Source of the DNA: Bacteroidia bacterium
GTDB lineage: Bacteria; Bacteroidota; Bacteroidia; J057
Reading direction: 5' to 3'
NCBI GenBank assembly: GCA_033391075.1
Contig: JAWPMV010000001.1
Location: forward strand, 6,882,001-6,946,000
DNA: 64,000 nucleotides
In this document: piece after piece, positions 1 through 42,664 of the stretch
How the letters are laid out: each line of letters begins with the position of its first letter
Numbering within the stretch: the stretch's first letter is position 1
Translations under genes and position numbers: made by a program
Notes under the pieces: generated by a model
What the model was told of the DNA's origin: nothing
What the model saw: only the letters and a program-made list of their open reading frames with translations
The model's database searches: none

Positions 1-802
1 CTTTTTCAACCTCTTTCAAAAGGATCGGATGAACCTCTTTTATGGCTCTATGGGAAATGTAATTCCCATATTTATCAACAATGATTCTCAATACTACCGT
101 CCCACTTATCCCGGCATCCCTGGCAAGTTGAGGATACTTGAGCACCTTCATAATCTCTTTCAGGTTCACGGGTTCAGGCTCTGAATCAACGTTTTTGCAA
201 AATGTATTCGGAAAATAAGGCGGTTCGCCTATCCCATAATCTCTTTCCCCAGGAAAACAAAAGCAACAAAAATGAACTTCTTCCCCAAATATCAGCGGTA
301 AATCAAAACTAGCTGGGACCTCATACTCAAGGACTTCTTCAACCGAATCAAGCTCAGGAATAATGTATGCTTCTTCAATATCAATAATAGCAGCTACTGA
401 CTTTGGATCAAGTATATATTGATCATTTGCTATTCCATCCATCCTGATTTTATGGCGAACTTGAGGCGCAGGTATTTGAAAATTCAGGAGATGTACTTTT
501 GTGCCTTGAGATAAAGCACCGTTGGGTGCAGGAAGGTGCTCAGGAGATTTATAAGGAATTTTGGGCCATCTGCATACTGAAGTTGACATATAGGATCTTT
601 CCTTCTCCCCCACATAAAAATGCAAAACTGCTAAAGGCAGATAAATGGCTAAGCCCCCGACAATAGCGAGGGCAGTCATGCCATACCAGATTTGGTTTTT
701 CTGGAGTTCTTTTCTCCCGTAAACGGGATCAATTTCTTTTGTAGGTTGTGGCTTGCCGTTTTTCAGGACCTGCCAATAGTACCGAAGGAGTGAGGTGATC
801 AT
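1..802 (-). CDS. TonB-family energy transducer (3' end beyond window)
   Basis: This partial minus-strand frame starts at the ATG at 802 and runs off the window edge. I read it directly from the reverse complement; it is open throughout. A short cytoplasmic stretch is followed by one membrane helix at about residues 40-60, then a proline-containing periplasmic region. The visible end matches the TonB C-terminal fold, with a KYPQLARDAGISG stretch followed by TVVLRIIVDKYGN. TonB proteins carry proton-motive energy from the inner membrane to outer-membrane receptors. It lies 53 bp downstream of a small membrane-protein gene on the same strand, so the two are probably cotranscribed. No exbB or exbD is visible here, so it may be one of the many TonB paralogues of Bacteroidota. 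A Cys-rich patch (FCCFCF) in the middle is unusual. Confidence 0.75.
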   Translation of the reverse strand, partial: MITSLLRYYWQVLKNGKPQPTKEIDPVYGRKELQKNQIWYGMTALAIVGGLAIYLPLAVLHFYVGEKERSYMSTSVCRWPKIPYKSPEHLPAPNGALSQGTKVHLLNFQIPAPQVRHKIRMDGIANDQYILDPKSVAAIIDIEEAYIIPELDSVEEVLEYEVPASFDLPLIFGEEVHFCCFCFPGERDYGIGEPPYFPNTFCKNVDSEPEPVNLKEIMKVLKYPQLARDAGISGTVVLRIIVDKYGNYISHRAIKEVHPILLKEVEK

Positions 803-855
803 GCTTTCTCATTTATGCAATGGAACAATTCAATTCCATGCAGGAGAAAGCGAAC

Positions 856-1272
856 CTAGTTTACATCTGAACTGAGCTCATGCCAGATAACAATGCGATT
901 GTTCGATTTTTCATGGATGGAATTACGATGCTTGGGAAGGGGAGGCCTTGGACGAATCGGCTCCGCAAATACACGTGAGCTGTTCATGTGAGTGCTTGTT
1001 TGCTGTCTGGGAAAGTTGTGAAAGGAAACTCCTAGTAATAAGGATATCCAAAGTGTAATGCAGGCAAACATAGAACTGAGGGCCAGTCTGTGGAAATTGC
1101 GATCCTTCTTTTTCAGGTATTCCCGATAGGCTGGACTTCTCAACGCCATCTCTACCTCCCTCGTAATGGCTTTCATATTACGGTTGCGAATATGGGTCAA
1201 GGTTCGGTTAAAACCTCTCCATCCTTTAGACAACAATCCATAAGCCAGGTAAATGAGATCACGAATAATCAT
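856..1272 (-). CDS. Small single-pass membrane protein, unknown function
   Basis: I do not recognise this 138-residue protein. It has a basic N-terminal half of about 60 residues, one clear hydrophobic helix near residues 64-85 (LALSSMFACITLWISLLLG) and a short proline-rich tail. The positive charges before the helix suggest that the N-terminus is cytoplasmic. The gene is directly upstream of the TonB-like gene on the same strand, with a 53-bp gap. It could be an accessory to that transducer or an anti-sigma-like membrane protein, but no motif proves either. A plus-strand frame at 1090-1314 overlaps it and shows no protein-like features. Confidence 0.55.
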   Translation of the reverse strand: MIIRDLIYLAYGLLSKGWRGFNRTLTHIRNRNMKAITREVEMALRSPAYREYLKKKDRNFHRLALSSMFACITLWISLLLGVSFHNFPRQQTSTHMNSSRVFAEPIRPRPPLPKHRNSIHEKSNNRIVIWHELSSDVN

Positions 1273-1467
1273 TTGGATAATCTAGTGATACGAAAATCCC
1301 ATTTTCCCAAGTAAATTGAAAAGAACTTTGCTCCCAAAGCTTACCATTGTCGTCCCCATGTAAGAATCTCGAATGGATTTTTTCCCGGGGTTTGTCAAAC
1401 AGCTTCAGGTTTATTATCTAGACTGCAGATTCGCCCCTATTCCACATATTTCTCTAGAAAAAATCCT

Positions 1468-2925
1468 ATGTATCGACTCATTCTACTTGTTTTATTTTGG
1501 ATTCCTTCGCTACTTTTTACTCAAAATTCTGCTATTCAATCCGCAATTAATACCTTAGACCGCGATCCCGACATGCGCTCGGCCAATTGGTCTTTTACGG
1601 TTTTGGACCTGAGTAGTGGTAAGACCATCGCAAGCCACGATCCCTATTCCAGCTTGAGCACAGCTTCCAGCTTAAAGGCTATTACCACAGCTTCCGCACT
1701 CGCTATTTTGGGACCTAACTATAGATATGAAACCTTCATTGAGCATGATGGGCGTTTGGAAGGAGGAATCCTGGAGGGAAATCTATACCTCAGAGGCTCA
1801 GGAGATCCCAGTTTAGGTTCAGATAGATTTGGAGAGGAATTGGCGATGGATAAAGTGCTGAATAAGTGGGCCTTGAAATTGAAAGATTCGGGCATACGAG
1901 AGATTAGAGGAATGATCATAGGAGATGCTCAGGCATTTTCTACCCAGCTTACACCCGATGAATGGGCATGGGAAGATATTGGAAACTATTACGGAGCGGG
2001 AGTAAGTGGGCTAAATCTGCATGAGAACTTATACTACCTCGATTTAAAACCCGGCCCATCTGTCGGTTCTGGTACGAAGGTGATTCGCACTCGTCCGGCG
2101 ATGAACATCAGTTTTGAAAATGAGTTGAGAACGGCAGGTTCCCGAACCGGAGATAATGCCTATATTTTTGGAGCTCCCTATACCCGTATTCGATATATAA
2201 GAGGGACGATACCCGCGGGGCGATCTGTCTTTACTATAAAGGGTTCTATTCCTGATCCTACTCAATTTGCAGCAGAACGCCTGAAGATGGCTTTGGAGAA
2301 ATGTGGAATCATTGTGGAAGGAGGTGCAAGCTCAGTTAGACATGAGCGTTTGCAGGGAAGGTATAGAGAGAGTAGGAGGAATGTATTGCTCAGCCACAAT
2401 TCTCCTCGCATGTCTGAGATCGTTTACCATACCAATATGAAAAGCGTCAATCTCTTTGCAGAGGCATTGGCACGAACCATCGCTGTCCATAATGGGAAGT
2501 TTGGCGGAAATGAGGAAGCCGTTGATGAAATTATGAACTATTGGTCCGCAAAAGGAATAGATACCAGAGGCATGAATATGCGAGATGGAAGCGGCCTGTC
2601 TCCCGGCAATGCAGTTTCCACCTATCAAATGGCGAGTATTCTCCGATATGCTTCCCGTCAAAGTTATTTTGAGACCTTTGAAAAATCTCTTCCCCTGGCC
2701 GGCAAATCCGGTTCTCTGAGAAGTATGATGAAAGGGACGATTGCAGAAGGAAAAGTTCGGGCGAAAAGCGGCTACATAGCAGGAGTTAGGAGCTATACAG
2801 GCTATGTTCGTACCAGAAGCGGGCAACATTGGGCCTTTAGCATGATCGCCAATAATTATAGCTGTAGTGCAGGAGCTATGAGAAGAAAACTTGAGAAACT
2901 CATGGTCGCCATGGCAGGGCAGTAA
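1468..2925 (+). CDS. dacB: D-alanyl-D-alanine carboxypeptidase/endopeptidase, PBP4 type (S13)
   Basis: This 485-residue secreted protein trims or cleaves peptidoglycan stem peptides in the periplasm. A signal peptide covers about residues 1-19. All three penicillin-binding active-site motifs are visible: SSLK at 67-70 (nucleophile Ser and general-base Lys), SVN at 326-328, and KSG at 433-435. The long insertion between the first two motifs is typical of class C low-mass PBPs (PBP4, family S13), and the length matches the family. The frame opens with ATG followed immediately by a signal peptide, so the start is well supported. The gene is monocistronic and ends at a bidirectional terminator shared with the convergent phosphofructokinase gene. 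Confidence 0.92.
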   Translation: MYRLILLVLFWIPSLLFTQNSAIQSAINTLDRDPDMRSANWSFTVLDLSSGKTIASHDPYSSLSTASSLKAITTASALAILGPNYRYETFIEHDGRLEGGILEGNLYLRGSGDPSLGSDRFGEELAMDKVLNKWALKLKDSGIREIRGMIIGDAQAFSTQLTPDEWAWEDIGNYYGAGVSGLNLHENLYYLDLKPGPSVGSGTKVIRTRPAMNISFENELRTAGSRTGDNAYIFGAPYTRIRYIRGTIPAGRSVFTIKGSIPDPTQFAAERLKMALEKCGIIVEGGASSVRHERLQGRYRESRRNVLLSHNSPRMSEIVYHTNMKSVNLFAEALARTIAVHNGKFGGNEEAVDEIMNYWSAKGIDTRGMNMRDGSGLSPGNAVSTYQMASILRYASRQSYFETFEKSLPLAGKSGSLRSMMKGTIAEGKVRAKSGYIAGVRSYTGYVRTRSGQHWAFSMIANNYSCSAGAMRRKLEKLMVAMAGQ

Positions 2926-26931: not shown

Positions 26932-28086
26932 ATGAGGAAATCATTCATTCTAATAGCTTGCTTGGGGATCCTGCTTGGGTTTTCAAATAGAGTTTTAGCC
27001 CAAAATCCTACTACCGGTGCTGAGAGAACCACGAAAACGATCACTACTGCTGTTCCGTTTTTGCTGGTGGCCCCTGATTCCCGCAGTGGAGGTATGGGTG
27101 AAGCTGGGGTAGCCATTGCGGATGATGCAAACGCCATGCATTGGAATCCTGCACAACTTGCATTTTTGGACAAACGCATGGGTTTTGCGATGTCTTACTC
27201 TCCTTGGTTGAGAGCTTTGGGAATTCCAGACATCAACCTGATGTACCTTTCAGGCTATTTCAATACAGGAGGAAAAGGAGTTGTTGGAGCATCTCTTCGC
27301 TATTTCTCTTTAGGAGAAATTCAGTTTACAGATAACCTGGGGCAGCCAACCGGAAGTGGTAAACCCAATGAGTTCGCGCTCGACCTTGCTTATGCACTGC
27401 CATTGACTGGCGATCTTTCCGGTTCTATCTCTCTTCGCTTTATCCACAGTGAGCTGGCTTCTAACAACAATGTGCCAACTGCAGATGCAAAGCCTGTGAA
27501 TTCAGCTGCGGGAGATATCGCTTTTGCGTACAAAAAAGATTTTAAAATGAATGGCGGAAATGGCCCGATTCCTGTTCGTTTCTCGAGTGGAATCAACATT
27601 TCTAACATTGGACCTAAGGTCTCATATTCAGCATCTACTGCCAATAAAGACTTCATCCCGATCAACATGAGATTAGGATATGCCTTTAAATTTTTGGTTG
27701 ATGACTATAACTCTATTACCTTTACCAATGATTTCAATAAATTATTGGTACCTTCTGAAGGTGGAAGATCTGACAAAGCACTGCTGAGTGGGATCTTTGG
27801 AAGCTTCGGAGATGCAGAAGGAGGTTTTGGAGAGGAGATCTCTGAATTTAATACATCTGTAGGATTTGAATACTGGTATCGCGAGATTTTTGCCGCGAGA
27901 GCAGGTTTCTTCTACGAAGATGCAGAAAAGGGTAATAGAAAATTCATCACCCTTGGAGCTGGCATCCGTTACAATGTATTTGGTTTGCACTTTGCTTACC
28001 TGGCGCCTCTGCAGCAAAATCACCCGCTGCAAAACACATTGCGCTTTACATTGACATACGATTTCGAGTCAGCTGGAAACGAGTAA
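26932..28086 (+). CDS. porV: T9SS outer-membrane protein PorV (LptO)
   Basis: This 384-residue outer-membrane beta-barrel of the FadL-like PorV/PorQ family has a signal peptide at 1-23 (ending VLAQ). The family start is visible: FLLVAPDSRSGGMGEAGVA followed by NAMHWNPAQLAFL. The remainder alternates as amphipathic strands and ends in an aromatic barrel strand. PorV carries T9SS cargo from the translocon to PorU for cleavage. The length and the position after porU fit. A strong terminator follows. Confidence 0.93.
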   Translation: MRKSFILIACLGILLGFSNRVLAQNPTTGAERTTKTITTAVPFLLVAPDSRSGGMGEAGVAIADDANAMHWNPAQLAFLDKRMGFAMSYSPWLRALGIPDINLMYLSGYFNTGGKGVVGASLRYFSLGEIQFTDNLGQPTGSGKPNEFALDLAYALPLTGDLSGSISLRFIHSELASNNNVPTADAKPVNSAAGDIAFAYKKDFKMNGGNGPIPVRFSSGINISNIGPKVSYSASTANKDFIPINMRLGYAFKFLVDDYNSITFTNDFNKLLVPSEGGRSDKALLSGIFGSFGDAEGGFGEEISEFNTSVGFEYWYREIFAARAGFFYEDAEKGNRKFITLGAGIRYNVFGLHFAYLAPLQQNHPLQNTLRFTLTYDFESAGNE

Positions 28087-29173: not shown

Positions 29174-31147
29174 TTATCGAATTCTAGACTGCAAATCCTG
29201 TACGGTCATCAAAACATCTTCACGAGACATTTCTCTGAACTTTGGTGGAAGCAATTCTTTCGAAGTACACTCCAATACTGCAGCATATGTCATCAGCTCA
29301 ATTTCTTCCGGATAAGTAGGTGGCAGGAAGTCATGGAAAACCTGCGCAATGATATCCACATTTACTTTATCCAGTCCTAAACTGGCTGCTTTGAATTTCG
29401 CACGGGTCAGAGCTGCCTCCATATCCGCACCGGACTTGATCGGAATATCCTCAAAGAAGTCCTCATCAAATTCGTCCATGTTCAAATAACTAAGTCCTGT
29501 CTTTTTCAACATGACATCCAGAAGCTCACGCTTGTCTTCAATTGATTCAGGGTAGAAAAGTCCGATATGTTCTTCTGCACGACCCTGGCGTTTAAAGTCA
29601 ACTGGCATAAGGTCGGGCCTCGCAGTTACCAGGAACCAGATGACCTTTCCTCTATTTTCTGAGTTAGACATGAAACTGGCCAACATAGAGAAGATCCGGC
29701 TGTTTACTCCACTACCTCCGGAATTGGACCGATTGCCCAAATAAGCATCGGCTTCATCAATCATTACGGCTACAGGAGCCATGGCTTTCAGAATTTTCAA
29801 CACCTTTTGGAGGTTGCCTTCTGACTGACCAACGTACATACCCCTGAAGTTTTTGAGCATGACCATTGGTACTCCTATATCATTGGCAAAAACGCTAATC
29901 ATAAAGGTCTTACCCGTACCTACGGGCCCTGAGATCAGATACCCCATTGGCATCACATCGGACCTGCCATTTTTCAAGGCATTGGCCGCATCAAGGAGAT
30001 GCTTTTTCGCCTGCGTATGACCGGCCACATTTTTCAAGCTGTATTTGGTCTCAACAAACTCCAACAAGCCCCCCGCTTCCTGCTCGATCATTTCCTTCTT
30101 CTGTTCTGTCAGCTCTTCATTCGTGAATTTGATCTTGTTTCGAGCTGCCTCATTCATGATCGTATTCAGCTGAACGAGGCTAAGACCTGCTGTATTTTTC
30201 GCAAAGACCTCCGCATTCATTTCAAAATGCTTTTTGCTGTCTTTGTGATTTTTGTAGAAATCCTTGATGAATACCAGACGATCTTCCTCTTTAGGATAGG
30301 GGAGGGATACGTCAAAAGTAAAAGGATTGCGAATATACTGCGCATTGAGGTTCATGAGGTTTTCCGTCATGACCACAATCGTCATATCAGCATCCAGGAA
30401 TTTCTTTTCCTTGGCCCACTTTTGCATGAAGACCAGCAGCATATGTTCTTCCGGACGGTAACTGGAATTTTCCGTCATCGGAATGAGGGTCTCTGCATAG
30501 TCAATTACAAATGCGATGGACTTGGGCTTAGAGAGATTGGCTTTCAATTTCGCCAGTCGGGCTTTGAGGGTTTCCAGGTCCCCTTTTCTTTTCTTGGCGT
30601 CCTCATCAAATTCTGGCAGGGTCATTTTGATAAAGCGGTCAATGATGTCTCCATCTTTGACAGGCTCATCAGTTTCTACCACATTAGAAGGACTTTGAAG
30701 ATTTGCTTCGACCTCAGAAAACCAGGCATCAATAAAGTCCTGATTGACCATGAGATTGAAATAGGTATCCAGGGTGAAAAATGATCTTGCAGGATTTCGG
30801 GTCAATTCTGCAAAATTATTATCTGTTAACTCATCAAAGAGTCTCAGGGTTGATACAAATTCTTTGCGGGTTTTACTGTCTCCGCCAAAAGTGCGATCGT
30901 CCTTAAATCTTATCCCTGCTGCGCGATCATAATAAATTACTATGTCTTTGTACTTAAAGAGTTCCTCATTGAGGAAATCTTTAATGAGATAGTAACTGTT
31001 CTTTTTATCGCGATTGACCCTCACATAGTCATTGATGTTTCCGTGAAGGATAAATTGAGATACATTTTGAGATAGGTACTTTCTTTGAATATCCTGAACC
31101 CACTCAGGCACAACCACCTTGGGTTTAGTCGTCTTAGCTTTAGCCAT
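29174..31147 (-). CDS. Two-module AAA+ ATPase with degenerate first module
   Basis: This 657-residue protein has two AAA+ modules. The first (about 25-330) lacks a Walker A motif and keeps only a Walker-B-like strand, FVIDYAE at 213-219. The second (about 365-600) is canonical: Walker A GPVGTGKT at 407-414, Walker B VMIDEAD at 461-467, a SRIFSML arginine-finger region and sensor 1 LVTARPD. The architecture resembles Ycf46-like or NSF/CDC48-like remodellers rather than proteases, since no protease domain is present. The target is unknown. It is divergent from the giant CHAT-like/TPR gene across 520 bp, which makes a shared process possible but unproven. Confidence 0.78.
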   Translation of the reverse strand: MAKAKTTKPKVVVPEWVQDIQRKYLSQNVSQFILHGNINDYVRVNRDKKNSYYLIKDFLNEELFKYKDIVIYYDRAAGIRFKDDRTFGGDSKTRKEFVSTLRLFDELTDNNFAELTRNPARSFFTLDTYFNLMVNQDFIDAWFSEVEANLQSPSNVVETDEPVKDGDIIDRFIKMTLPEFDEDAKKRKGDLETLKARLAKLKANLSKPKSIAFVIDYAETLIPMTENSSYRPEEHMLLVFMQKWAKEKKFLDADMTIVVMTENLMNLNAQYIRNPFTFDVSLPYPKEEDRLVFIKDFYKNHKDSKKHFEMNAEVFAKNTAGLSLVQLNTIMNEAARNKIKFTNEELTEQKKEMIEQEAGGLLEFVETKYSLKNVAGHTQAKKHLLDAANALKNGRSDVMPMGYLISGPVGTGKTFMISVFANDIGVPMVMLKNFRGMYVGQSEGNLQKVLKILKAMAPVAVMIDEADAYLGNRSNSGGSGVNSRIFSMLASFMSNSENRGKVIWFLVTARPDLMPVDFKRQGRAEEHIGLFYPESIEDKRELLDVMLKKTGLSYLNMDEFDEDFFEDIPIKSGADMEAALTRAKFKAASLGLDKVNVDIIAQVFHDFLPPTYPEEIELMTYAAVLECTSKELLPPKFREMSREDVLMTVQDLQSRIR

Positions 31148-31667: not shown

Positions 31668-34600
31668 ATGCCAGCTAGATTTAAACCGCACATTTTTCTT
31701 GCCTGTACATTAGCAAGTGAGGAGGGGAAGAGACGATTAGACCCTGCTCAACATTGCGATGACATACTTAGGGTTCTTCAATATTGGATAGATAATGGAG
31801 GATGCGAAGTCTTACAGGCCAGACCTGGCTCTAAACTGTACCTGGAGGATGTTCTTGCAAACAAGAACAACAGAAGAGAAGTGGTTGGAATTCACCTCAT
31901 CGGAGAATTGCAAGATGAGAGCCATTTGCTTTTTAGATCGAGATCCGACCAGCAGTCATATAGCTTTGAGGAGTTTGGAAATAGCCTCAAAGAATTTCCC
32001 AAAATTCAGTTTCTATTTTTAAGTGGGATTAATGATCCCAAGCTGATCCACCAGATCCATGCAGCCGGCGTGCCAGCTGTATTTTCTATTAAGGATGCAC
32101 GACTTTCTCCTACGATAGTCGAGGCATTTTATCTTCAAATGTTGAGGGGGAAATCTGTAAAAGATTCGGTATTAGGATTGGACAGTATTCTAAAAATAGA
32201 AATATCCCGACACGAAGTAGACTTTAGTTACCAGTATGGACCCTGGAATGGAAATGATTTACCAAATCCGGGTGCATATGGGTTTTATTATAGAAAGGAC
32301 AAGTTTAAAAATTTGGGCTGGCGTTTGCGTAGCCCATTACTCATTCCAGGAGCAGAGAAGGATGAAATTGATTCCTACCTGGTAAAACTTTCCCATGAAG
32401 ATCCTATTGGACGTCTGTTGAAGGAGATTGAAAAGGAAGATGCTTCCAGTTCTAGCTGGAAAGAGCAAGAGAGGGCAATAGATGTGCAGGATCATGTAAT
32501 CGCAGAAACATTAGATACAATTGAAGAAATAAGTGAGATTGAGTCTGATGATGCAAAAATTGAGGATTTAGCGGAAAAAGCTGAATCTACAGAAGAGGTA
32601 AGAGAGGAAGTTGTTTCAGAAGAAACAAGCGAAGCAGAAATAGTAGCAGAAGAAGAGGAAGCTACAGAAGCAGCAGTTGAAGAAGTTGTTTCGGAGGAAG
32701 AAACGGAAGCTGAAATCGTAGCAGAGGAAGATGAGACTACTGAAGAAGTTATCGAAGAGCCGGTTTCGGAAGAAGAATCCGAAGCAGAAATAGTAGCGGA
32801 AGAAGAGGAGACTGATGAAGAAGCAATCGAAGAACCCGTTTCAGAAGCCGAAGCAGAAATAGTAGCGGAAGAAGAGGAGACTGCTGAAGAAGCAGTTGAA
32901 GAAGTTGTTTCGGAGGAAGAAACGGAAGCTGAAATCGTAGCAGAGGAAGATGAGACTACTGAAGAAGTTATCGAAGAGCCGGTTTCGGAAGAAGAAGCCG
33001 AAGCAGAAATAGTAGCAGAGGAAGATGAGACTACTGAAGAAGTTATCGAAGAGCCGGTTTCGGAAGAAGAAGCCGAAGCTGAAATAGTAGCGGAAGAAGA
33101 GGAGACTGCTGAAGAAGCAGTTGAAGAAGTTGTTTCGGAAGAAGAAGCCGAAGCAGAAATAGTAGCAGAGGAAGAGGAAACTACAGAAGAAGTTATCGAA
33201 GAGCCGGTTTCGGAAGAAGAAGCCGAAGCAGAAATAGTAGCAGAGGAAGAGGAAACTACAGAAGAAGTTATCGAAGAGCCGGTTTCGGAAGAAGAAGCCG
33301 AAGCTGAAATAGTAGCGGAAGAAGAGGAGACTGCTGAAGAAGCAGTTGAAGAAGTTGTTTCGGAAGAAGAAGCCGAAGCAGAAATAGTAGCAGAGGAAGA
33401 GGAAACTACAGAAGAAGTTATCGAAGAGCCGGTTTCGGAAGAAGAAGCCAAAGCAGAAATAGTAGCAGAGGAAGAGGAAACTACAGAAGAAGCAGTTGAG
33501 GAAGTTGTTTCAGAAGAGGAAGCCGAGGCGGAAGAAGTAGTAGCGGAAGAGGAAGCTACAGAAGAAACAGTTGAAGAAATTGTTTCGGAAGAAGAGACGG
33601 AAGAATTAACTGAGGAGGAGGAAGAAAACATAGGAGGAAGGAAAAAATCTAAATCTTCCAAGAAGAATAAAAGATCGGAAGCCAGGAAAAAACGAAGAGC
33701 CAAGCGTCAGAAGAGTTCTAAAAAGGGCTTGCCAACGATCAAACTGGATGTCAGAGAGATTGTTGAGTCTGATGAGAAAGAGGCACTGGCTATAACAAAT
33801 GAAAAGCTAGAAACTCCCTCTATCGAAACCCATATCGAGGACGGAGCTGAAATAATAAATCCTTTGGTGAATCAGGAAATCCTGGAGGATGCAAAAGCCG
33901 TTGAAGAGCTTTCCGAAGCTGATACAGAAAAAGGAAATGAAAAATCCGAAGCTGTAGAAGCTAGTGAAGATTCTAAGGCTGAAGAAGAGTTGATCGAAGA
34001 ACCAGTTTCGGAAGAAGAAGCTGAAGCAGAAATAGTAGCGGAAGAAGAGGAGACTGATGAAGAAGTAATCGAAGAGCCGGTTTCGGAAGAAGAAACAGAG
34101 GCTGAGATCGTAGCAGAAGAAGAGGAGACTGCTGAAGAAGCAATTGAGGAAGTTGTTTCGGAAGAAGAAGCCGAAGCAGAAATAGTAGCGGAAGAAGAGG
34201 AAACTGATGAAGAAGCAATTGAGGAAGTTGTTTCGGAAGAAGAAGCCGAAGCAGAAATAGTAGCGGAAGAAGAGGAAACTACAGAAGAAGTTATCGAAGA
34301 GCCGGTTTCGGAAGAAGAAGCTGAAGCAGAAATAGTAGCAGAGGAAGAGGAAACTACAGAAGAAGTTATCGAAGAGTCGGTTTCCGAAGAAGAAGCCGAA
34401 GCAGAAATAGTAGCAGAGGAAGAGGAAACTACAGAAGAAGTTATCGAAGAGCCGGTTTCCGAAGAAGAAGCCGAAGCAGAAATAGTAGCTGAAGAAGAGG
34501 AAACTACAGAAGAAGCAGTTGAGGAAGTTGTTTCAGAAGAAGAGACAGAAGCGGAAGAAGTAGTGGCGGAAGAGGAAACTACAGAAGAAGCCGAAGCAGA

Positions 34601-37600
34601 AATAGTAGCGGAAGAAGAGGAGACTGCTGAAGAAGCAATCGAAGAACTCGTTTCAGAAGCCGAAGCAGAAATAGTAGCGGAAGAAGAAGAGACTGCTGAA
34701 GAAGCAATCGAAGAACCGGTTTCAGAAGAAGAAGCTGAACTTGAGATAGTAGCAGAAGAAGAGGAGACTGCCGAAGAAGTTATTGAAGAGCCAGTTTCGG
34801 AAGAAGAAGCTGAACTTGAGATAGTAGCAGAGGAAGAGGAGACTGCCGAAGAAGTTATCGAAGAGCCAGTTTCGGAAGAAGAAGCTGAAGCTGAGATCGT
34901 AGCAGAAGAAGAGGAGATTGTTGAAGAAGCAATCGAAGAACCCGTTTCAGAAGAAGCAGCAGAAATAGTAGCGAAAGAAGAAGAGACTGCTGAAGAAGCA
35001 ATCGAAGAACCGGTTTCAGAAGAAGAAGCTGAACTTGAGATAGTAGCAGAGGAAGAGGAGACTGCCGAAGAAGTTATCGAAGAGCCGGTTTCAGAAGAAG
35101 AAGCCGAAGCAGAAATAGTAGCAGAGGAAGAGGAAACTACAGAAGAAGTTATCGAAGAGCCGGTTTCCGAAGAAGAAGCTGAAGCTGAAATCGTAGCAGA
35201 GGAAGAGGAAACTACAGAAGAAGTTATCGAAGAGCCGGTTTCCGAAGAAGAAGCCGAAGCAGAAATAGTAGCAGAGGAAGAGGAAACTACAGAAGAAACA
35301 ATCGAAGAACCGGTTTCCGAAGAAGAAGCTGAACTTGAAATTGTTGCAGAGGAAGAGGAAACTACAGAAGAAGCAATCGAAGAACCGGTTTCCGAAGAAG
35401 AAGCTGAACTTGAAATTGTTGCAGAGGAAGAGGAAACTAGAGAAGAAGCAATCGAAGAGCCGGTTTCCGAAGAAGAAGCAGAGGCTGAGATAGAAGAGGA
35501 AGAAAAGATTCCGTTCGGTGAATACAGCATTCAGGAACAATTCCCTGATAAGGATATAGAAGCCGATAAAGAAAAATTAAAATCCTTCCTCGCTGAGGAA
35601 CCCAAAGCAGAGGAACAAGAAGTCAATGTCTTCCAACCGGTAAACGGCAAAGAAGAAGTTGAACTCATATCAGAATCTATCCTCGAAAGAGAATTTGAAC
35701 CCGTCAATGAGAGACTGGAAAGGGAAGAGCTAGGATATGGGGAGATAGAGGAAGAAGTACAGGAAGTAGAGCCTGTTTTGAGTAGCCCGGTACCAGCAGA
35801 GGTTCAGAAGCCTCAACCCAATCCTCAGAAAAGAAGACCTACTCCCGCAAGGAGAGAAGATTCCGGCAGGCCTTCCAATAGGAAGCGACCGGTCAAAAAT
35901 CGAGTTAATAAAGACATTAGTTCCGCAATTCCTAAAGATCAGGAATTGATGGTTCAGAAAACCCGGAAAAAACGGGTACGTACCCTGGGAATTCTTGGTG
36001 GCTTGGTAGCTGCTTCTCTTGCAGGGGCGATGTTTATTTTCGGAGGAGATATTTTTGGACCGAAAGAAGAAGGAATTTTTGCTGCTAATGATGGTTCCTA
36101 CCACGTTCTCATGCTGCCTTCCTATAATGTCCAAAGCTGTGAACAGGGAGATAATGTATTTGTCGAAAGTTTGCGAGCACGTTTCAAAACACTCAATGGA
36201 GAAGAAAACGTTCCGGTTGATTCTCGTTTCGTCGATGTATTGGATTGTAGTGAAATTCAGTCTGTCGCACAAAAACTGGGTAAAAACTGGAATGCGAATC
36301 TGGTAGTATGGGGGGAATATGAAGCGAATAATGATTTTACCCTAAATTACTTCACGACCAGCAAACAAGGAGAAAATCTCTTTATGGATGGAAATGTTGG
36401 ACAGACTACCATCTCCGCAGATTTGATCGAATCTGATCCCGTGCTTGCAAGTAAAAGTCTGGAAAATATTCTCTACTGGGCACTTTCTTATGCTCAGATG
36501 GGTCGTGAAAATTATCCGGAAGCCGAACGCTACCTGACCCGGATAAAGCCAGAAAATGAGCTGCAAAGCTCTAGTGTTAGTGCCCTTTTAACCAAATGCT
36601 ATATAGAGTCCGCTCAATACGAAAAGGCAGTTGGGAATTATGATAATCTAATTGCTCAAAATCCAGCTGATACCAAGGCATATTTTGAAAGAGGAAAAGT
36701 CCTGGCTCAAATGGGAGAATTCCCAAGAGCCCTGGAAGACTATAACCATGTCCTCGATCAGGAACCAGAAAACATTCATGTGCTGATGAGCAGAGGGATT
36801 TTATATGCGGACCGTGAGCAGTACAATCGTGCGCTTCGTGATTTTGGGAAAGTATTGGATTTGGATGCCAACTTTGCCCCGGTCTTCGTAAATCGTGCCG
36901 AAGTCTACATCGACCTCCAGCAGTTTAGCCGAGCGATGAAAGATTATGATTTAGCTATCGAAGCGAATCCTTCTTATGCGCAAAGTTATTACCATAGAGG
37001 GATGCTGCATCAGAAACTGGGCAATGATGAAGAAGCGAGAGCTGACATGGCGAGAGCTTTGCAATATCAGTCTGACTTCACTGCTGCGAAATTGTTTGAA
37101 GGAGATCTACTGGCAGAAAGAGGTTCAAATAATCGGGCAATCAATGCCTACACACAAATAATTGAGAGCGACCCTTCAGCGGAAGCTTATCATAGAAGAG
37201 GGAAAGTTTATAGCGAAGTAGGAAACCATAGCCTGGCTATTAGGGATTTTTCTGAAGCCCTTCAACTTCGTGAAAATCTGGTGGAAGCCAGATTGGATAG
37301 AGGGATTGCCTATACAAAATCCGGATCTCTGGATAGAGCTATTGAGGATTTTGGTAGAATTCTCCAATTGAGGCCTTCCTATTCAGCTGCTTATATAGAG
37401 CGTGGGAAAGCATATATTGGAAAGGATGAAGGAGAATTAGCCTTATCTGATTTCGAAAATGCCCTCAAGATCAATCCACAAAATGATGAGATTTATCTTC
37501 ACAGAGGAATCCTCTTTTTCAAAAAAGAGCAATATGAGGAGTCCCTCGATAACCTGAATGAAGCGATTCGGTATAATTCAACTTTCGCAGAAGCCTATAT

Positions 37601-38795
37601 GTATCGAGGCCTTGTGAAAAAAGCGATGAATAGAAATGGAGATGCACTCAGAGATTTTAATCGTGCGATTCTCCTGGAAAATGAATTAGGAGATGCTTAC
37701 TTCCATAGAGGAGTGATCTATCGTGAGAGAAATAACCAGCGCAGAGCTATACAGGATATGGAGTCTGCTGTTGGAAATGATACCCGTCAAATAGAAGCTT
37801 ATACCTACCTCGCAGATATGTACAAAGATCATATCGATGGGGGAGAGGTTGTGAAATTATACTCTCAGGCTTTAGCCCTGGATTCAACACGCGCGGATAT
37901 CTATTACCATCGTGCCAATTACTATTATGAGTTGAAAGACCTCAAACATGCATTGGCCGACTTTAACCGGGCCGTTCAGTTGAGTCCTCCTGAAGATGAA
38001 ATTATTTATTTCTACAGAGGAAAAGCCAATGCAAAATTGAACAATCTCAATGATGCACTATTAGACTTCAACTCTCTCTTAAGAGCCTATCCGGACTCTG
38101 CCCGTTTTTATTCTGAAAGAGCCTTGCTTTATCAGGACATGGGTAAGATCAAAAAGGCAGAAGAAGATTTTGAAACGGCTCTCGCCCTAGAGCCCAATAA
38201 TCCCGAGATTTTCCTAAGTAAGGGAATCCTCTATATGAACCGTCAAAACTATGACCTCGCATTGGGAGAGTTTGACGCTGCCATTTCTCTTGACCCCAAA
38301 TACTCTGAAGCTTACAATCGGAGAGGGGAACTGTATTTTGAAATGGAAAAATATGATAAAGCCCTCGCGGATTATAACTATTCGATAGAACTAAATCCGA
38401 GAAATGCGGCTGCTTTTAATAATCGGGGAAACCTCGCCAGAAAAGCAGGAGATTACCGCAGAGCCTTCCGGGATTACTCGCAGGCAATAGAATATAATCC
38501 GTCTTTGAGTGGTGCTTACTACAACCGCGGATTTATCAGAGCTATGCAAGAGGATTATGCCGATGCTGTTACGGATATAGAAAAGGCCCTGGACCTGGGA
38601 CCTGCGACCGGAATCCGCTATGGCTTCCTGGCCAAGATCTATGCAAGGCAGCAACAAGATGTTCTTTTCTATAAGAATATCGAACTGGCCCTGGAAAATG
38701 ATTATCCAACCATTGAATTGGATAAGGATCCTGCTTTCAGGCCTTACAAGACTCAGGAAAGATTTAAAGAATTACTGGAAACTTATCAGAACTAG
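31668..38795 (+). CDS. Giant membrane protein: inactive CHAT-like domain, Glu-rich repeats, TPR array
   Basis: This 2375-residue protein has five parts. Residues about 5-170 resemble the CHAT caspase-like fold (LFLSG then AGVPAV at 133-138), but the usual catalytic His and Cys positions read GIHLIGEL (74-81) and LSGIND (118-123), so proteolysis is unlikely. Residues 312-654 and 776-1280 are 14 and 20 copies of a 25-residue acidic repeat (unit like IEEPVSEEEAEAEIVA), separated by a Lys/Arg-rich linker. One helix at 1439-1460 follows basic residues. Then comes a small alpha/beta domain (ANLVVWGEYE) and about 20 TPRs from 1598 to 2345. Positive-inside logic puts the acidic part in the cytoplasm and the TPRs in the periplasm. 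Its function is unknown. Confidence 0.75.
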   Translation: MPARFKPHIFLACTLASEEGKRRLDPAQHCDDILRVLQYWIDNGGCEVLQARPGSKLYLEDVLANKNNRREVVGIHLIGELQDESHLLFRSRSDQQSYSFEEFGNSLKEFPKIQFLFLSGINDPKLIHQIHAAGVPAVFSIKDARLSPTIVEAFYLQMLRGKSVKDSVLGLDSILKIEISRHEVDFSYQYGPWNGNDLPNPGAYGFYYRKDKFKNLGWRLRSPLLIPGAEKDEIDSYLVKLSHEDPIGRLLKEIEKEDASSSSWKEQERAIDVQDHVIAETLDTIEEISEIESDDAKIEDLAEKAESTEEVREEVVSEETSEAEIVAEEEEATEAAVEEVVSEEETEAEIVAEEDETTEEVIEEPVSEEESEAEIVAEEEETDEEAIEEPVSEAEAEIVAEEEETAEEAVEEVVSEEETEAEIVAEEDETTEEVIEEPVSEEEAEAEIVAEEDETTEEVIEEPVSEEEAEAEIVAEEEETAEEAVEEVVSEEEAEAEIVAEEEETTEEVIEEPVSEEEAEAEIVAEEEETTEEVIEEPVSEEEAEAEIVAEEEETAEEAVEEVVSEEEAEAEIVAEEEETTEEVIEEPVSEEEAKAEIVAEEEETTEEAVEEVVSEEEAEAEEVVAEEEATEETVEEIVSEEETEELTEEEEENIGGRKKSKSSKKNKRSEARKKRRAKRQKSSKKGLPTIKLDVREIVESDEKEALAITNEKLETPSIETHIEDGAEIINPLVNQEILEDAKAVEELSEADTEKGNEKSEAVEASEDSKAEEELIEEPVSEEEAEAEIVAEEEETDEEVIEEPVSEEETEAEIVAEEEETAEEAIEEVVSEEEAEAEIVAEEEETDEEAIEEVVSEEEAEAEIVAEEEETTEEVIEEPVSEEEAEAEIVAEEEETTEEVIEESVSEEEAEAEIVAEEEETTEEVIEEPVSEEEAEAEIVAEEEETTEEAVEEVVSEEETEAEEVVAEEETTEEAEAEIVAEEEETAEEAIEELVSEAEAEIVAEEEETAEEAIEEPVSEEEAELEIVAEEEETAEEVIEEPVSEEEAELEIVAEEEETAEEVIEEPVSEEEAEAEIVAEEEEIVEEAIEEPVSEEAAEIVAKEEETAEEAIEEPVSEEEAELEIVAEEEETAEEVIEEPVSEEEAEAEIVAEEEETTEEVIEEPVSEEEAEAEIVAEEEETTEEVIEEPVSEEEAEAEIVAEEEETTEETIEEPVSEEEAELEIVAEEEETTEEAIEEPVSEEEAELEIVAEEEETREEAIEEPVSEEEAEAEIEEEEKIPFGEYSIQEQFPDKDIEADKEKLKSFLAEEPKAEEQEVNVFQPVNGKEEVELISESILEREFEPVNERLEREELGYGEIEEEVQEVEPVLSSPVPAEVQKPQPNPQKRRPTPARREDSGRPSNRKRPVKNRVNKDISSAIPKDQELMVQKTRKKRVRTLGILGGLVAASLAGAMFIFGGDIFGPKEEGIFAANDGSYHVLMLPSYNVQSCEQGDNVFVESLRARFKTLNGEENVPVDSRFVDVLDCSEIQSVAQKLGKNWNANLVVWGEYEANNDFTLNYFTTSKQGENLFMDGNVGQTTISADLIESDPVLASKSLENILYWALSYAQMGRENYPEAERYLTRIKPENELQSSSVSALLTKCYIESAQYEKAVGNYDNLIAQNPADTKAYFERGKVLAQMGEFPRALEDYNHVLDQEPENIHVLMSRGILYADREQYNRALRDFGKVLDLDANFAPVFVNRAEVYIDLQQFSRAMKDYDLAIEANPSYAQSYYHRGMLHQKLGNDEEARADMARALQYQSDFTAAKLFEGDLLAERGSNNRAINAYTQIIESDPSAEAYHRRGKVYSEVGNHSLAIRDFSEALQLRENLVEARLDRGIAYTKSGSLDRAIEDFGRILQLRPSYSAAYIERGKAYIGKDEGELALSDFENALKINPQNDEIYLHRGILFFKKEQYEESLDNLNEAIRYNSTFAEAYMYRGLVKKAMNRNGDALRDFNRAILLENELGDAYFHRGVIYRERNNQRRAIQDMESAVGNDTRQIEAYTYLADMYKDHIDGGEVVKLYSQALALDSTRADIYYHRANYYYELKDLKHALADFNRAVQLSPPEDEIIYFYRGKANAKLNNLNDALLDFNSLLRAYPDSARFYSERALLYQDMGKIKKAEEDFETALALEPNNPEIFLSKGILYMNRQNYDLALGEFDAAISLDPKYSEAYNRRGELYFEMEKYDKALADYNYSIELNPRNAAAFNNRGNLARKAGDYRRAFRDYSQAIEYNPSLSGAYYNRGFIRAMQEDYADAVTDIEKALDLGPATGIRYGFLAKIYARQQQDVLFYKNIELALENDYPTIELDKDPAFRPYKTQERFKELLETYQN
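32601..33628 (+). repeat. Minisatellite block 1 (about 14 x 75 bp, coding)
   Basis: In-frame tandem units of 75 bp (25 codons; one unit of 69 bp) encode the acidic repeats of the giant protein. Several neighbouring units are identical or nearly so at the DNA level, which suggests recent duplication. Confidence 0.9.
33993..35507 (+). repeat. Minisatellite block 2 (about 20 x 75 bp, coding)
   Basis: A second array of the same 75-bp unit, separated from block 1 by a 364-bp linker that encodes a basic stretch. Two units are shortened, and one fused unit near 34530-34645 shows a past unequal exchange. Confidence 0.9.
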
Positions 38796-39550: not shown

Positions 39551-42500
39551 ATGAACTATAATAAGATAAACAACCTGGTTGGTTGGAGTGTGTTTTTAGT
39601 TGCACTGCTGGTATATCTGGCAACCGTAGCACCTACAGCCAGCTTTTGGGATTGTGGGGAATTTATTGCCTGCTCAAATGAATTGGAAGTAACACACCCT
39701 CCGGGAGCTCCCCTCTTTTTATTGTTGGGGAGGATATTGGCTATGTTGGCCCCCAATCCGGAGACCATTGCTTTTATGGTCAATTTGTTGAGTGTGCTGG
39801 CAAGTGCGTTTACGGCATTGTTTACCTGCTGGACAGTTACGATGCTGGCGAAAAAGGGATTGAAGAGAAGTAGTTGGTCGGAGAAAGAAAAAATACTGGG
39901 CGGCATGGGTGCTGGAGTTATTGCGGGATTGAGCTGTATTTTCGCTGATTCTATTTGGTTCAATGCAGTAGAAGCAGAAGTTTATGCCCTGAGTTCATTC
40001 TTTACAGCGATTGTGGTTTGGTTGATGTTTAAATGGGAAGCCAGGGCTGACGAAGCCGATCATTTGAAATACATCATCCTGATCGCCTATGTGATGGGCC
40101 TTTCAACTGGAGTCCATTTGCTCAATTTGCTGACTATTCCAGCTCTCGCACTCGTTTATTTTTTCCGCAAATATGAATTCAACTGGAAAGGAATCATGGC
40201 TACCCTAGCCATTTCAACCGGAATTCTGGCTTTCATTCAATATGGAATTTTGCAAACCATGATCAGCCTGGCTGCTGATATGGAGCTGCTCTTTACCGGG
40301 ACCCAGACCAGAGCAGGAGTAGATACGGGTGGATTGGGAATGGCCATGGGAACTGGAGCTACGGTATTCGCCATGATCATTTTTGCTTTACTGGTAGGCC
40401 TGATCGTGTATAGCCAGATTAAAAAGAAGGTGATCCTGAATACGGTTCTGCTTTCTACGGTCATGATACTGGTCGGCTTTTCTTCCTATTCCATCATTTT
40501 CATCCGTTCCAATGCCAACCCTCCGGTTGACATGAACAATCCGGAGAATGTCTTCACTTTCCTCAGTTACATGAAACGGGAACAATACGGAGACAGACCC
40601 CTCCTCAGAGGACCGATGTACAATGCACAGGTAAAGTTTGACCGCACAACAGGCTATCCGATTTCTGATACAGTCGGCATGAAATATACCTTGCTGGATG
40701 GCTCAGGAAAATATGTAGAAGATATCCCCAAAACAGAATATCAATATGAAGATAAGAATGTAGTATTCTTTCCTCGTATGTATAAAACGGATCGTTATGC
40801 CATGGGGCCCTATGGCTATACTAACTTTGTAAAAAACAAAGGACAAAATCCGAATAGCCCCTATGACGATAAGCCCACACGTGCCGAAGATCTTCGCTTC
40901 TTTTTTCAATACCAGATCGGACATATGTACCTGAGGTACTTCTTCTGGAATTTTGTGGGAAGGGAAAGTGATATTCGCGATGATAGATGGGAATCGGGCC
41001 TTGAATTTGCCGATAGCAGTCGCTATATCTATGAGCGCAAAAATAATAAGGCCAAGAATCATTATTTCTTCCTTCCATTTTTTCTGGGCCTCCTGGGAAT
41101 GGTTTGGCATTTTATCGCAGCGAAAAAAGATGCGAGTATAATCGGCCTTCTTTTCTTCTTTACAGGCATTGCCATTATCGTTTATCTCAATCAATATCCG
41201 GCCCAGCCAAGGGAAAGGGATTATTCTTTTGCCGGTTCATTCCAGACTTTTTGTATGTGGATTGGACTGGGGTTCTTATTCTTGCAGGAAGTATTCAGGA
41301 AGCATCTGGGAAATAAATCCTTTTATGTGGCTGCTGCCATTGCCCTGATCGCGCCTGTCCTGATGGCGACTCAGAACTGGGATGATCATACGCGCAAAGG
41401 AAGATATATCGATATCGAATTTGCCAAGAACCTTCTGAATACTTGTGAAGAAAATGCCATCTTATTTACCGGTGGAGATAATGATACCTTCCCGCTGTGG
41501 TACATACAGGAAGTAGAGGGCTATCGTACAGATGTACGTGTGGTTAACCTGGAACTATTGATTTCCGATTGGTACATCGATCAAATGCGTTCGGAAAGAA
41601 ATGGAACTCCCGGTATCCCGGTGAGTATAGATCAGAAAGATCTGACGGGAGATGCAGGATTGGTGATCAATGGTTTTCAATCACAAAAAATCGCTCTTCC
41701 ACTAGATCCGATTGAATTGGTCAAAAAAGGGATCTTCAATGCACAGGAAGCCAGCCTGGCTGATTCCGTTATGATCTGGGATTTCAAGGCAAGGGGAAGA
41801 GCCGACAATCCCTATATCCTGAGAAAAGACCTCATCATTATGGATGTGATCAAAAATGTGGCTATGGATGGCTGGAAACGTCCCATTTATTTCGCCAACA
41901 ATATGCAAACGGACAATTACCTCAACCTTATGGATTTCTTCCGGGTTGAAGGCCTGGCATATCGGGTAGTTCCTTTGAAAAAATCGGATAAAACCCTCAA
42001 TGATCGCTATACGCATGGTACGCTGAGACCTGATATTCTGAAAAGAAATATTACGGAAAAGTTCCTTTATACAGGCTTGGATAATCCGGATGTGTACTTT
42101 GATGAGCATATCCGCAACCTGGTCATCAATAATTACCGCAATAATTTTCTCCGCCTCGCGGCTGCTTATGCTGATGGATATAGTAGTCTGGGCAAAGAAA
42201 TAGCAGAGATAGATAGTTTGATGAAAGAGGAAGGAGCAGATGTCGAAGCATTGGATCATAGTCGTCTGGCAAAAGCTGCCAAAAGACAATCTTATCAGGA
42301 ACAGGCTGCTGAAGCCATAGCCTTCTCACGACAAGTGATGCCTACAGATGTTGAGCCACAAGGGAATCTCTACCTGGGATTGCAACAAGCACAGGTCCTG
42401 GAGACCCTTAAATTGATGGAAGATGCCGCAAGAGAATATGATGAGGTGGCGGAAGTAGGGATCGAGCAATTGCAGGATGATGTAAATATGGGCCAGCCCA

Positions 42501-42664
42501 TTGATCAGAATAATCTCTCTATGCAGATCACTTTATTGGCGATCCGCCATTACATTGAAAATGGAAATGAAGAGAAGGCACAGGCTCTGGCTCAGCGAAT
42601 TGAAGAGGTCAGTGCATCCCCGATAGGTAAACTGGTAATCGAGCAATTGAAAGGCGGTCAATAA
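39551..42664 (+). CDS. DUF2723 membrane glycosyltransferase
   Basis: This 1037-residue protein has about a dozen N-terminal membrane helices (to roughly residue 330, and again near 500-620) and a soluble C-terminal half. The DUF2723 hallmark is at the start: TVAPTASFWDCGEFI, then HPPGAPLFLLLGR, with the acidic residues expected for a GT-C catalytic loop. Related proteins, including human TMEM260, are O-mannosyltransferases, so protein O-glycosylation in the periplasm is the likely role. The C-terminal part contains GGDNDTFPLWY and a helical TPR-like end. rlmB starts 1 bp after its stop, so the two share an operon. Confidence 0.85.
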   Translation: MNYNKINNLVGWSVFLVALLVYLATVAPTASFWDCGEFIACSNELEVTHPPGAPLFLLLGRILAMLAPNPETIAFMVNLLSVLASAFTALFTCWTVTMLAKKGLKRSSWSEKEKILGGMGAGVIAGLSCIFADSIWFNAVEAEVYALSSFFTAIVVWLMFKWEARADEADHLKYIILIAYVMGLSTGVHLLNLLTIPALALVYFFRKYEFNWKGIMATLAISTGILAFIQYGILQTMISLAADMELLFTGTQTRAGVDTGGLGMAMGTGATVFAMIIFALLVGLIVYSQIKKKVILNTVLLSTVMILVGFSSYSIIFIRSNANPPVDMNNPENVFTFLSYMKREQYGDRPLLRGPMYNAQVKFDRTTGYPISDTVGMKYTLLDGSGKYVEDIPKTEYQYEDKNVVFFPRMYKTDRYAMGPYGYTNFVKNKGQNPNSPYDDKPTRAEDLRFFFQYQIGHMYLRYFFWNFVGRESDIRDDRWESGLEFADSSRYIYERKNNKAKNHYFFLPFFLGLLGMVWHFIAAKKDASIIGLLFFFTGIAIIVYLNQYPAQPRERDYSFAGSFQTFCMWIGLGFLFLQEVFRKHLGNKSFYVAAAIALIAPVLMATQNWDDHTRKGRYIDIEFAKNLLNTCEENAILFTGGDNDTFPLWYIQEVEGYRTDVRVVNLELLISDWYIDQMRSERNGTPGIPVSIDQKDLTGDAGLVINGFQSQKIALPLDPIELVKKGIFNAQEASLADSVMIWDFKARGRADNPYILRKDLIIMDVIKNVAMDGWKRPIYFANNMQTDNYLNLMDFFRVEGLAYRVVPLKKSDKTLNDRYTHGTLRPDILKRNITEKFLYTGLDNPDVYFDEHIRNLVINNYRNNFLRLAAAYADGYSSLGKEIAEIDSLMKEEGADVEALDHSRLAKAAKRQSYQEQAAEAIAFSRQVMPTDVEPQGNLYLGLQQAQVLETLKLMEDAAREYDEVAEVGIEQLQDDVNMGQPIDQNNLSMQITLLAIRHYIENGNEEKAQALAQRIEEVSASPIGKLVIEQLKGGQ

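Follow-up and report, generated by a model that had tools for sequence, protein, structure and literature searches.

A family-restricted membrane protein of a Bacteroidia bacterium with a predicted pseudo-CHAT head, an acidic repeat arm and a TPR tail

What could a bacterium do with a giant membrane protein whose caspase-like head appears to have lost both catalytic residues? The question is raised by a 64,000-nucleotide stretch of DNA (hereafter, the window) from the 9.49-Mb genome of a Bacteroidia bacterium. An open reading frame on its forward strand (positions 31668-38795; ATG at 31668, stop codon at 38793-38795) encodes, as read from the sequence, a protein of 2375 aa, which consists of a head of about 226 residues, an acidic arm, a basic juxtamembrane segment, a transmembrane (TM) helix, a small domain, tetratricopeptide repeats (TPRs) and a TPR cap, in this order (Table 1). 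Two antisense open reading frames (32492-33703 and 33872-35530) bear no sign of being genes and mirror the GAA-rich repeats of the arm. Two genes that look ordinary for Bacteroidota lie near the giant gene, one for a homolog of PorV of type IX secretion (26932-28086) and one for a homolog of the TMEM260-like protein O-mannosyltransferase (39551-42664).

Table 1. Features of the giant gene and its divergent neighbor, with positions in the window
Feature	Position	Residues (aa)	Strand	Basis
AAA+ ATPase, 657 aa, divergent neighbor, possible partner	29174..31147		-	Pfam AAA, E 4.7e-26
Pseudo-CHAT head, predicted caspase-like alpha/beta fold, cytoplasmic	31668..32345	1-226	+	AlphaFold, PDB match, hhalign
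Glu80 codon at the catalytic His position (GELQ)	31905..31907		+	65-head alignment, hhalign
Ile121 codon at the catalytic Cys position (GIND)	32028..32030		+	65-head alignment, hhalign
Acidic arm, 34 copies of a motif of about 25 aa (consensus EIVAEEEETTEEVIEEPVSEEEAEA), in two blocks	32415..35522	about 250-1285	+	
Lys/Arg-rich block between the two acidic blocks	33630..33752	655-695	+	sequence
Single TM helix behind the basic juxtamembrane segment (predicted N-in)	35985..36047	1440-1460	+	hydropathy, charge bias
Small extracytoplasmic domain with a Cys pair, tentatively TolB-N-like fold	36096..36503	1477-1612	+	AlphaFold, pLDDT 82
About 20 TPRs	36672..38609	about 1669-2314	+	Pfam TPR_1, E 2.4e-87; 34-aa register
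C-terminal TPR cap, NCBIfam 'TPR end-of-group' (NF047558)	38610..38792		+	lies within the most conserved part of the protein

Fold and active-site positions of the head

A Pfam scan of the head of the window protein alone gave no match at all, to CHAT, Peptidase C14 or any other family, and C14 was likewise not matched by the whole giant protein; we therefore turned to profile and fold evidence. A profile built from six heads was aligned by hhalign with the profile of intact CHAT paralogs, which themselves pass the Pfam CHAT (PF12770) cutoff, at a probability of 99.8% (E 2.3e-28, 219 columns), compared with 0.2% for an unrelated control profile. The head profile also matched PDB entry 8tl0, a 'CHAT domain-containing protein', with an E value of 7e-5, and a paralog from the same genome that is dead too (L198) passes PF12770 directly (33.8 bits versus a cutoff of 24). 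Structure prediction, which the initial annotation had put forward as a test of the head, yielded a caspase-like fold (AlphaFold with five input sequences; pLDDT 81.7, pTM 0.82). The best solved match to this model was the SAVED-CHAT protein 8tl0 (Z 17.5 over 191 residues, 3.1 A), followed by DdvA, caspases, legumain and metacaspase (Z about 11-12). Thus, the CHAT/caspase-like nature of the head, previously judged by eye, is borne out by both lines of evidence.

In an alignment of 65 heads, the His column reads HYGGHAD in intact paralogs versus HLIGELQ in the window protein, and the Cys column LNGCST versus LSGINDP; the catalytic positions are thus occupied by Glu80 and Ile121, in agreement with the GELQ and GIND reported there at the outset. 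A His/Cys pair retained elsewhere in the domain was also looked for, and none was conserved across the group to which the window protein belongs (group A, described below), nor was a dyad kept in register. Just past the fold, the motif L-x-W-R-L-R-N-P is conserved in group A. Judging from sequence and model, the head is a member of the CHAT fold and sequence family that lacks the catalytic His-Cys dyad, and it is probably a docking or signaling part rather than a protease.

The arm, the membrane helix and the extracytoplasmic part

The arm indeed contains the roughly 34 acidic 25-residue repeats initially estimated: 34 motif copies, encoded by a tandem DNA array with a period of 75, fall between residues 323 and 1272. 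Asp and Glu make up 44% of the arm, which has a net charge of -469. The Lys/Arg-rich block recalls the juxtamembrane basic segment and possibly represents an internal duplication; this block and the TolB-like domain with its Cys pair were absent from the initial annotation. Comparison of the repeat copies showed 1459 synonymous versus 236 non-synonymous pair differences (about 0.04 as a corrected ratio, the pairs being non-independent), and this synonymous excess suggests that the protein sequence of the arm has been kept, although its length varies. In complete group A proteins, the spacer between head and TM helix ranges from 5 to 1189 aa, with an Asp+Glu content of 0-44%, and is often non-acidic. 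Such wide variation in length and acidity rules out the arm as a conserved domain, and the earlier view of a long acidic arm as a defining part of the protein had to be abandoned. By sequence comparison, the arm appears instead as a local expansion under purifying selection and not a family feature, and a flexible charged spacer would be its simplest reading.

The single TM helix of the window protein is preceded by 10 Lys/Arg residues within 30 positions and followed by 1; the corresponding numbers in group A are 5-15 and 1-4. This charge bias predicts an N-in orientation, with the head and arm in the cytoplasm and the TPRs outside it, and supports the membrane-spanning layout originally proposed. 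A TM helix was found in all family members examined; the charge bias for N-in is pronounced in group A and not clear in some members of groups B and C. The small domain behind the helix had no Pfam match. Its comparison with TolB structures gave Z scores of 7.7-8.2 over 107-120 residues, which is near background, so that the name TolB-like is tentative. Both cysteines of its pair are present in 17 of the 19 family members and both are absent in the other 2; the two cysteines thus go together, as expected of a disulfide in an oxidizing compartment. The TPR region comprises 15-16 stretches significant by Pfam and 19 units in a regular 34-aa register, close to the roughly 20 TPRs behind one membrane helix that had been counted before. 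Mean pairwise identity within group A reaches 43% over the last 200 aa versus 22% for the heads.

Distribution of the family and related systems

The initial annotation had recommended a search for the same architecture in other Bacteroidota. Searches with the head and the small domain showed that 8 of the family's 13 genomes encode proteins of this plan, 19 in total, including one whose gene is divided between two contigs; the relatives are represented by Bacteroidia/Bacteroidetes MAGs. The plan was not found in the 9 other genomes of the order that were searched, and among 395 genomes sampled from the phylum, only the source genome matched. No CHAT relative was confirmed when viral contigs were scanned. 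Every member with a visible N terminus has a CHAT head, which is never lost or truncated.

The proteins fall into three paralog groups (A, B and C), which differ in their active-site residues. Group A contains the window protein, L026 with L257, L027, L028, L029, L035, L259 and L258, the head of the last being cut off by a contig end. Group B consists of L198 (from the window genome), L030, L232 and L213. All members of groups A and B with a visible head have lost both catalytic residues. In group C, which includes L032 (also from the window genome), L036, L037, L038, L210 and the partial L260, the His is lost and the Cys is mostly kept, and one family member, L039, keeps both. In one genome (G004), the group A gene (L026/L118 and L257, on contigs C960 and C1422) is broken inside the repeat arm, most likely by an assembly break. 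Group D comprises CHAT proteins that are small (284-325 aa) and tail-anchored; the dyad is intact in most of them. Phylogenetic analysis supported the group B clade well; the joint group A clade is weak (86/75) and long-branched, which limits any count of independent losses from the tree.

Group D genes adjoin group C genes in L036 (5214-8121) and L037 (6619-9513), the group D partner having the full dyad. A similar pair of small anchored CHAT proteins, in which a His-less or dead CHAT-TM protein is accompanied by a tail-anchored partner that keeps the Cys, is encoded in L235 (3143-4949), and group A and group C genes stand in tandem in L259. The window genome (G000) encodes 18 CHAT-like heads at E <= 0.001, that is, 17 besides that of the giant, in soluble, STAND/WD40-fused, tail-anchored and TPR-fused forms. 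Another gene in this genome (L200:5417-10240, reverse strand) encodes a CHAT-STAND-like protein in which many WD40-like repeats are nearly identical (MEHESxVxGAVFSQGEDKILSWS...), an array that looks like a very recent expansion.

Among the CHAT proteins compared, all 34 without a TM helix are intact, whereas 20 of the 31 with a TM helix have lost one or both residues, the set of 31 including L026, whose contig ends before the TM region, and L259, which was read by eye (Fisher p 3e-9, indicative only, because the rows are related). Of the proteins with a TolB-like domain, 16 of 17 are not intact. Thus, as far as the sequences tell, catalytic loss tracks membrane anchoring and is seen only in membrane-anchored members.

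The architecture had been thought undescribed, a claim that cannot be upheld in this form. HetF of Anabaena/Nostoc has an N-terminal CHAT domain, one TM helix and C-terminal TPRs in the same order as the giant (PMC8406250, Fig. 4A legend), and pseudo-orthocaspases of the FS-dyad type, which are bacterial caspase-fold pseudoproteases like the giant's head, also carry C-terminal TPRs (PMC6426788). However, HetF is an active protease that cleaves PatU3 (PMC12288457), whereas the dyad of the giant is lost, and neither an acidic arm nor a TolB-like domain is mentioned in the descriptions of HetF on which this comparison is based. The pseudo-orthocaspases belong to the p20/C14 group, whereas the sequence relatives of the giant are CHAT proteins; the accessible text of the orthocaspase survey describes no TM/TolB-like/TPR layout of the giant's kind and counts only 10 pseudo-variants among 1078 Bacteroidetes sequences (PMC6426788). 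The SAVED-CHAT protease 8tl0, although the closest solved fold, forms filaments and has a SAVED domain but no TM helix or TPRs. The anti-sigma factor DdvA (PDB 8rw5, 8rot), the second-best fold match (Z 12, residues 800-991), is likewise a membrane protein that contains a caspase-like domain, but this domain lies near the C terminus of a transmembrane anti-sigma factor and no sequence-level match was found. In the literature searched, coverage of which was partial, we found no description of a dead CHAT-TM-TPR family or of the biology of dead CHAT domains in bacteria; the small CHAT-TM-TPR family with a dead head is thus apparently undescribed.

Candidate roles of the giant protein

We tentatively favor the reading that the giant is a transmembrane sensor or scaffold with a pseudo-CHAT head for docking a partner in the cytoplasm, most likely the cell's own intact CHAT proteins. 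The protein would be a single-pass inner-membrane scaffold or sensor of a family-restricted CHAT-TM-(TolB-like)-TPR group. Its extracytoplasmic TPR part may bind an envelope partner or ligand, the acidic repeat arm would set the reach of the head, and the head itself would serve as a non-catalytic cytoplasmic docking module through CHAT-CHAT contacts, comparable to those of c-FLIP with caspase-8. Animals are well known to have pseudo-caspases that regulate their active relatives. The parallel with the long form of c-FLIP, a pseudo-caspase-8 in which a dead caspase fold dimerizes with an active relative (PMC6426788), is an analogy only, since c-FLIP is an animal protein with death effector domains and homology is limited to the fold. 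CHAT-CHAT pairing is considered a candidate because of the group C/D gene pairs, the many CHAT paralogs and the correlation between catalytic loss and anchoring; the position of group C genes beside intact group D genes points to it most clearly. Against it, no intact CHAT gene lies beside the window gene, the conserved neighbor of which encodes the AAA+ ATPase, and the lower identity of group A heads than of their TPR ends may reflect relaxed constraint on the head, contrary to a docking role.

A somewhat doubtful possibility is a 'decoy caspase receptor' system, in which extracytoplasmic TPR/TolB-like sensors would relay envelope signals via dead CHAT heads to tail-anchored intact CHAT proteases, with the dead heads holding or triggering these small enzymes at the membrane's inner face. 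If true, the groups would form an evolutionary series within one family, beginning with the intact L039, passing through the His-less group C and ending with groups A and B, which are fully dead.

Other explanations were weighed as well. The shared CHAT-TM-TPR order, the localization of HetF at the divisome and its binding of FtsI (PMC8406250 and PMC12288457), together with the high conservation of the TPR C terminus in group A, would suit a factor of the envelope or divisome that resembles HetF and acts without CHAT-CHAT pairing. Its head would bind a cytoplasmic or membrane substrate without cutting it, while the TPRs would anchor the protein to peptidoglycan or the division machinery. Yet HetF requires its active site (same sources), which is lost here, and in the loci read, none of the genes next to family members was recognized as a division gene, so that we regard this role as unlikely. 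The AAA+ gene suggests a different partner, with the giant acting as an adaptor that presents the head itself or a cargo to an AAA+ machine at the membrane. In five genera (G000, G004, G005, G006 and G007), homologs of this gene, 65-79% identical, are the immediate divergent neighbors of group A genes, and in G003 the two genes are about 5 kb apart; the remaining flanking genes, where readable, are not the same from genome to genome. However, the two are not adjacent in G001, adjacency may mean shared regulation only, and the AAA+ gene is older and more widespread, being present in 13 of 13 family genomes, five of which lack group A, and having relatives in Balneolia and Rhodothermia, where the giant is missing. 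An obligate partnership was rejected on this ground, the adaptor role is quite unlikely, and the AAA+ protein is best described as a possible partner or a neighbor sharing a promoter. Neither Pfam nor NCBIfam provides a specific family name for it. An IetAS defense system was considered and rejected: the IetA-type NCBIfam model scored 39 bits versus a cutoff of 510, and the IetA-type match in PADLOC (46 bits over about 85 residues) covers only the generic AAA core. PADLOC supported no defense-system assignment for any head.

The head might also have no function, being a tolerated N-terminal cap with a vestigial CHAT fold on a working membrane-anchored TPR scaffold. The 22% versus 43% identity is what such a vestige might show, but the fold is well modeled, the head is retained wherever the N terminus is visible, the L-x-W-R-L-R-N-P motif is conserved and the arm repeats appear to be under purifying selection, which makes this explanation decidedly improbable. 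Finally, 5 of 7 heads in group A retain Cys13 (FLAC), which lies where the first strand ends; this might fit a head that has remained an enzyme by relocating its catalytic residues. The FLAC cysteine, however, also occurs in group D paralogs with a normal dyad, and thus Cys13 is no substitute for the dyad; since, in addition, the group A heads share no conserved His/Cys pair, a relocated active site is barely credible.

Whichever partner the head of the giant may dock, the family provides a natural series in which membrane-anchored CHAT heads are intact, half-dead or dead, beside soluble CHAT proteins that are all intact. The series can be used to ask whether active CHAT proteases are under the control of pseudo-CHATs tethered to the membrane.
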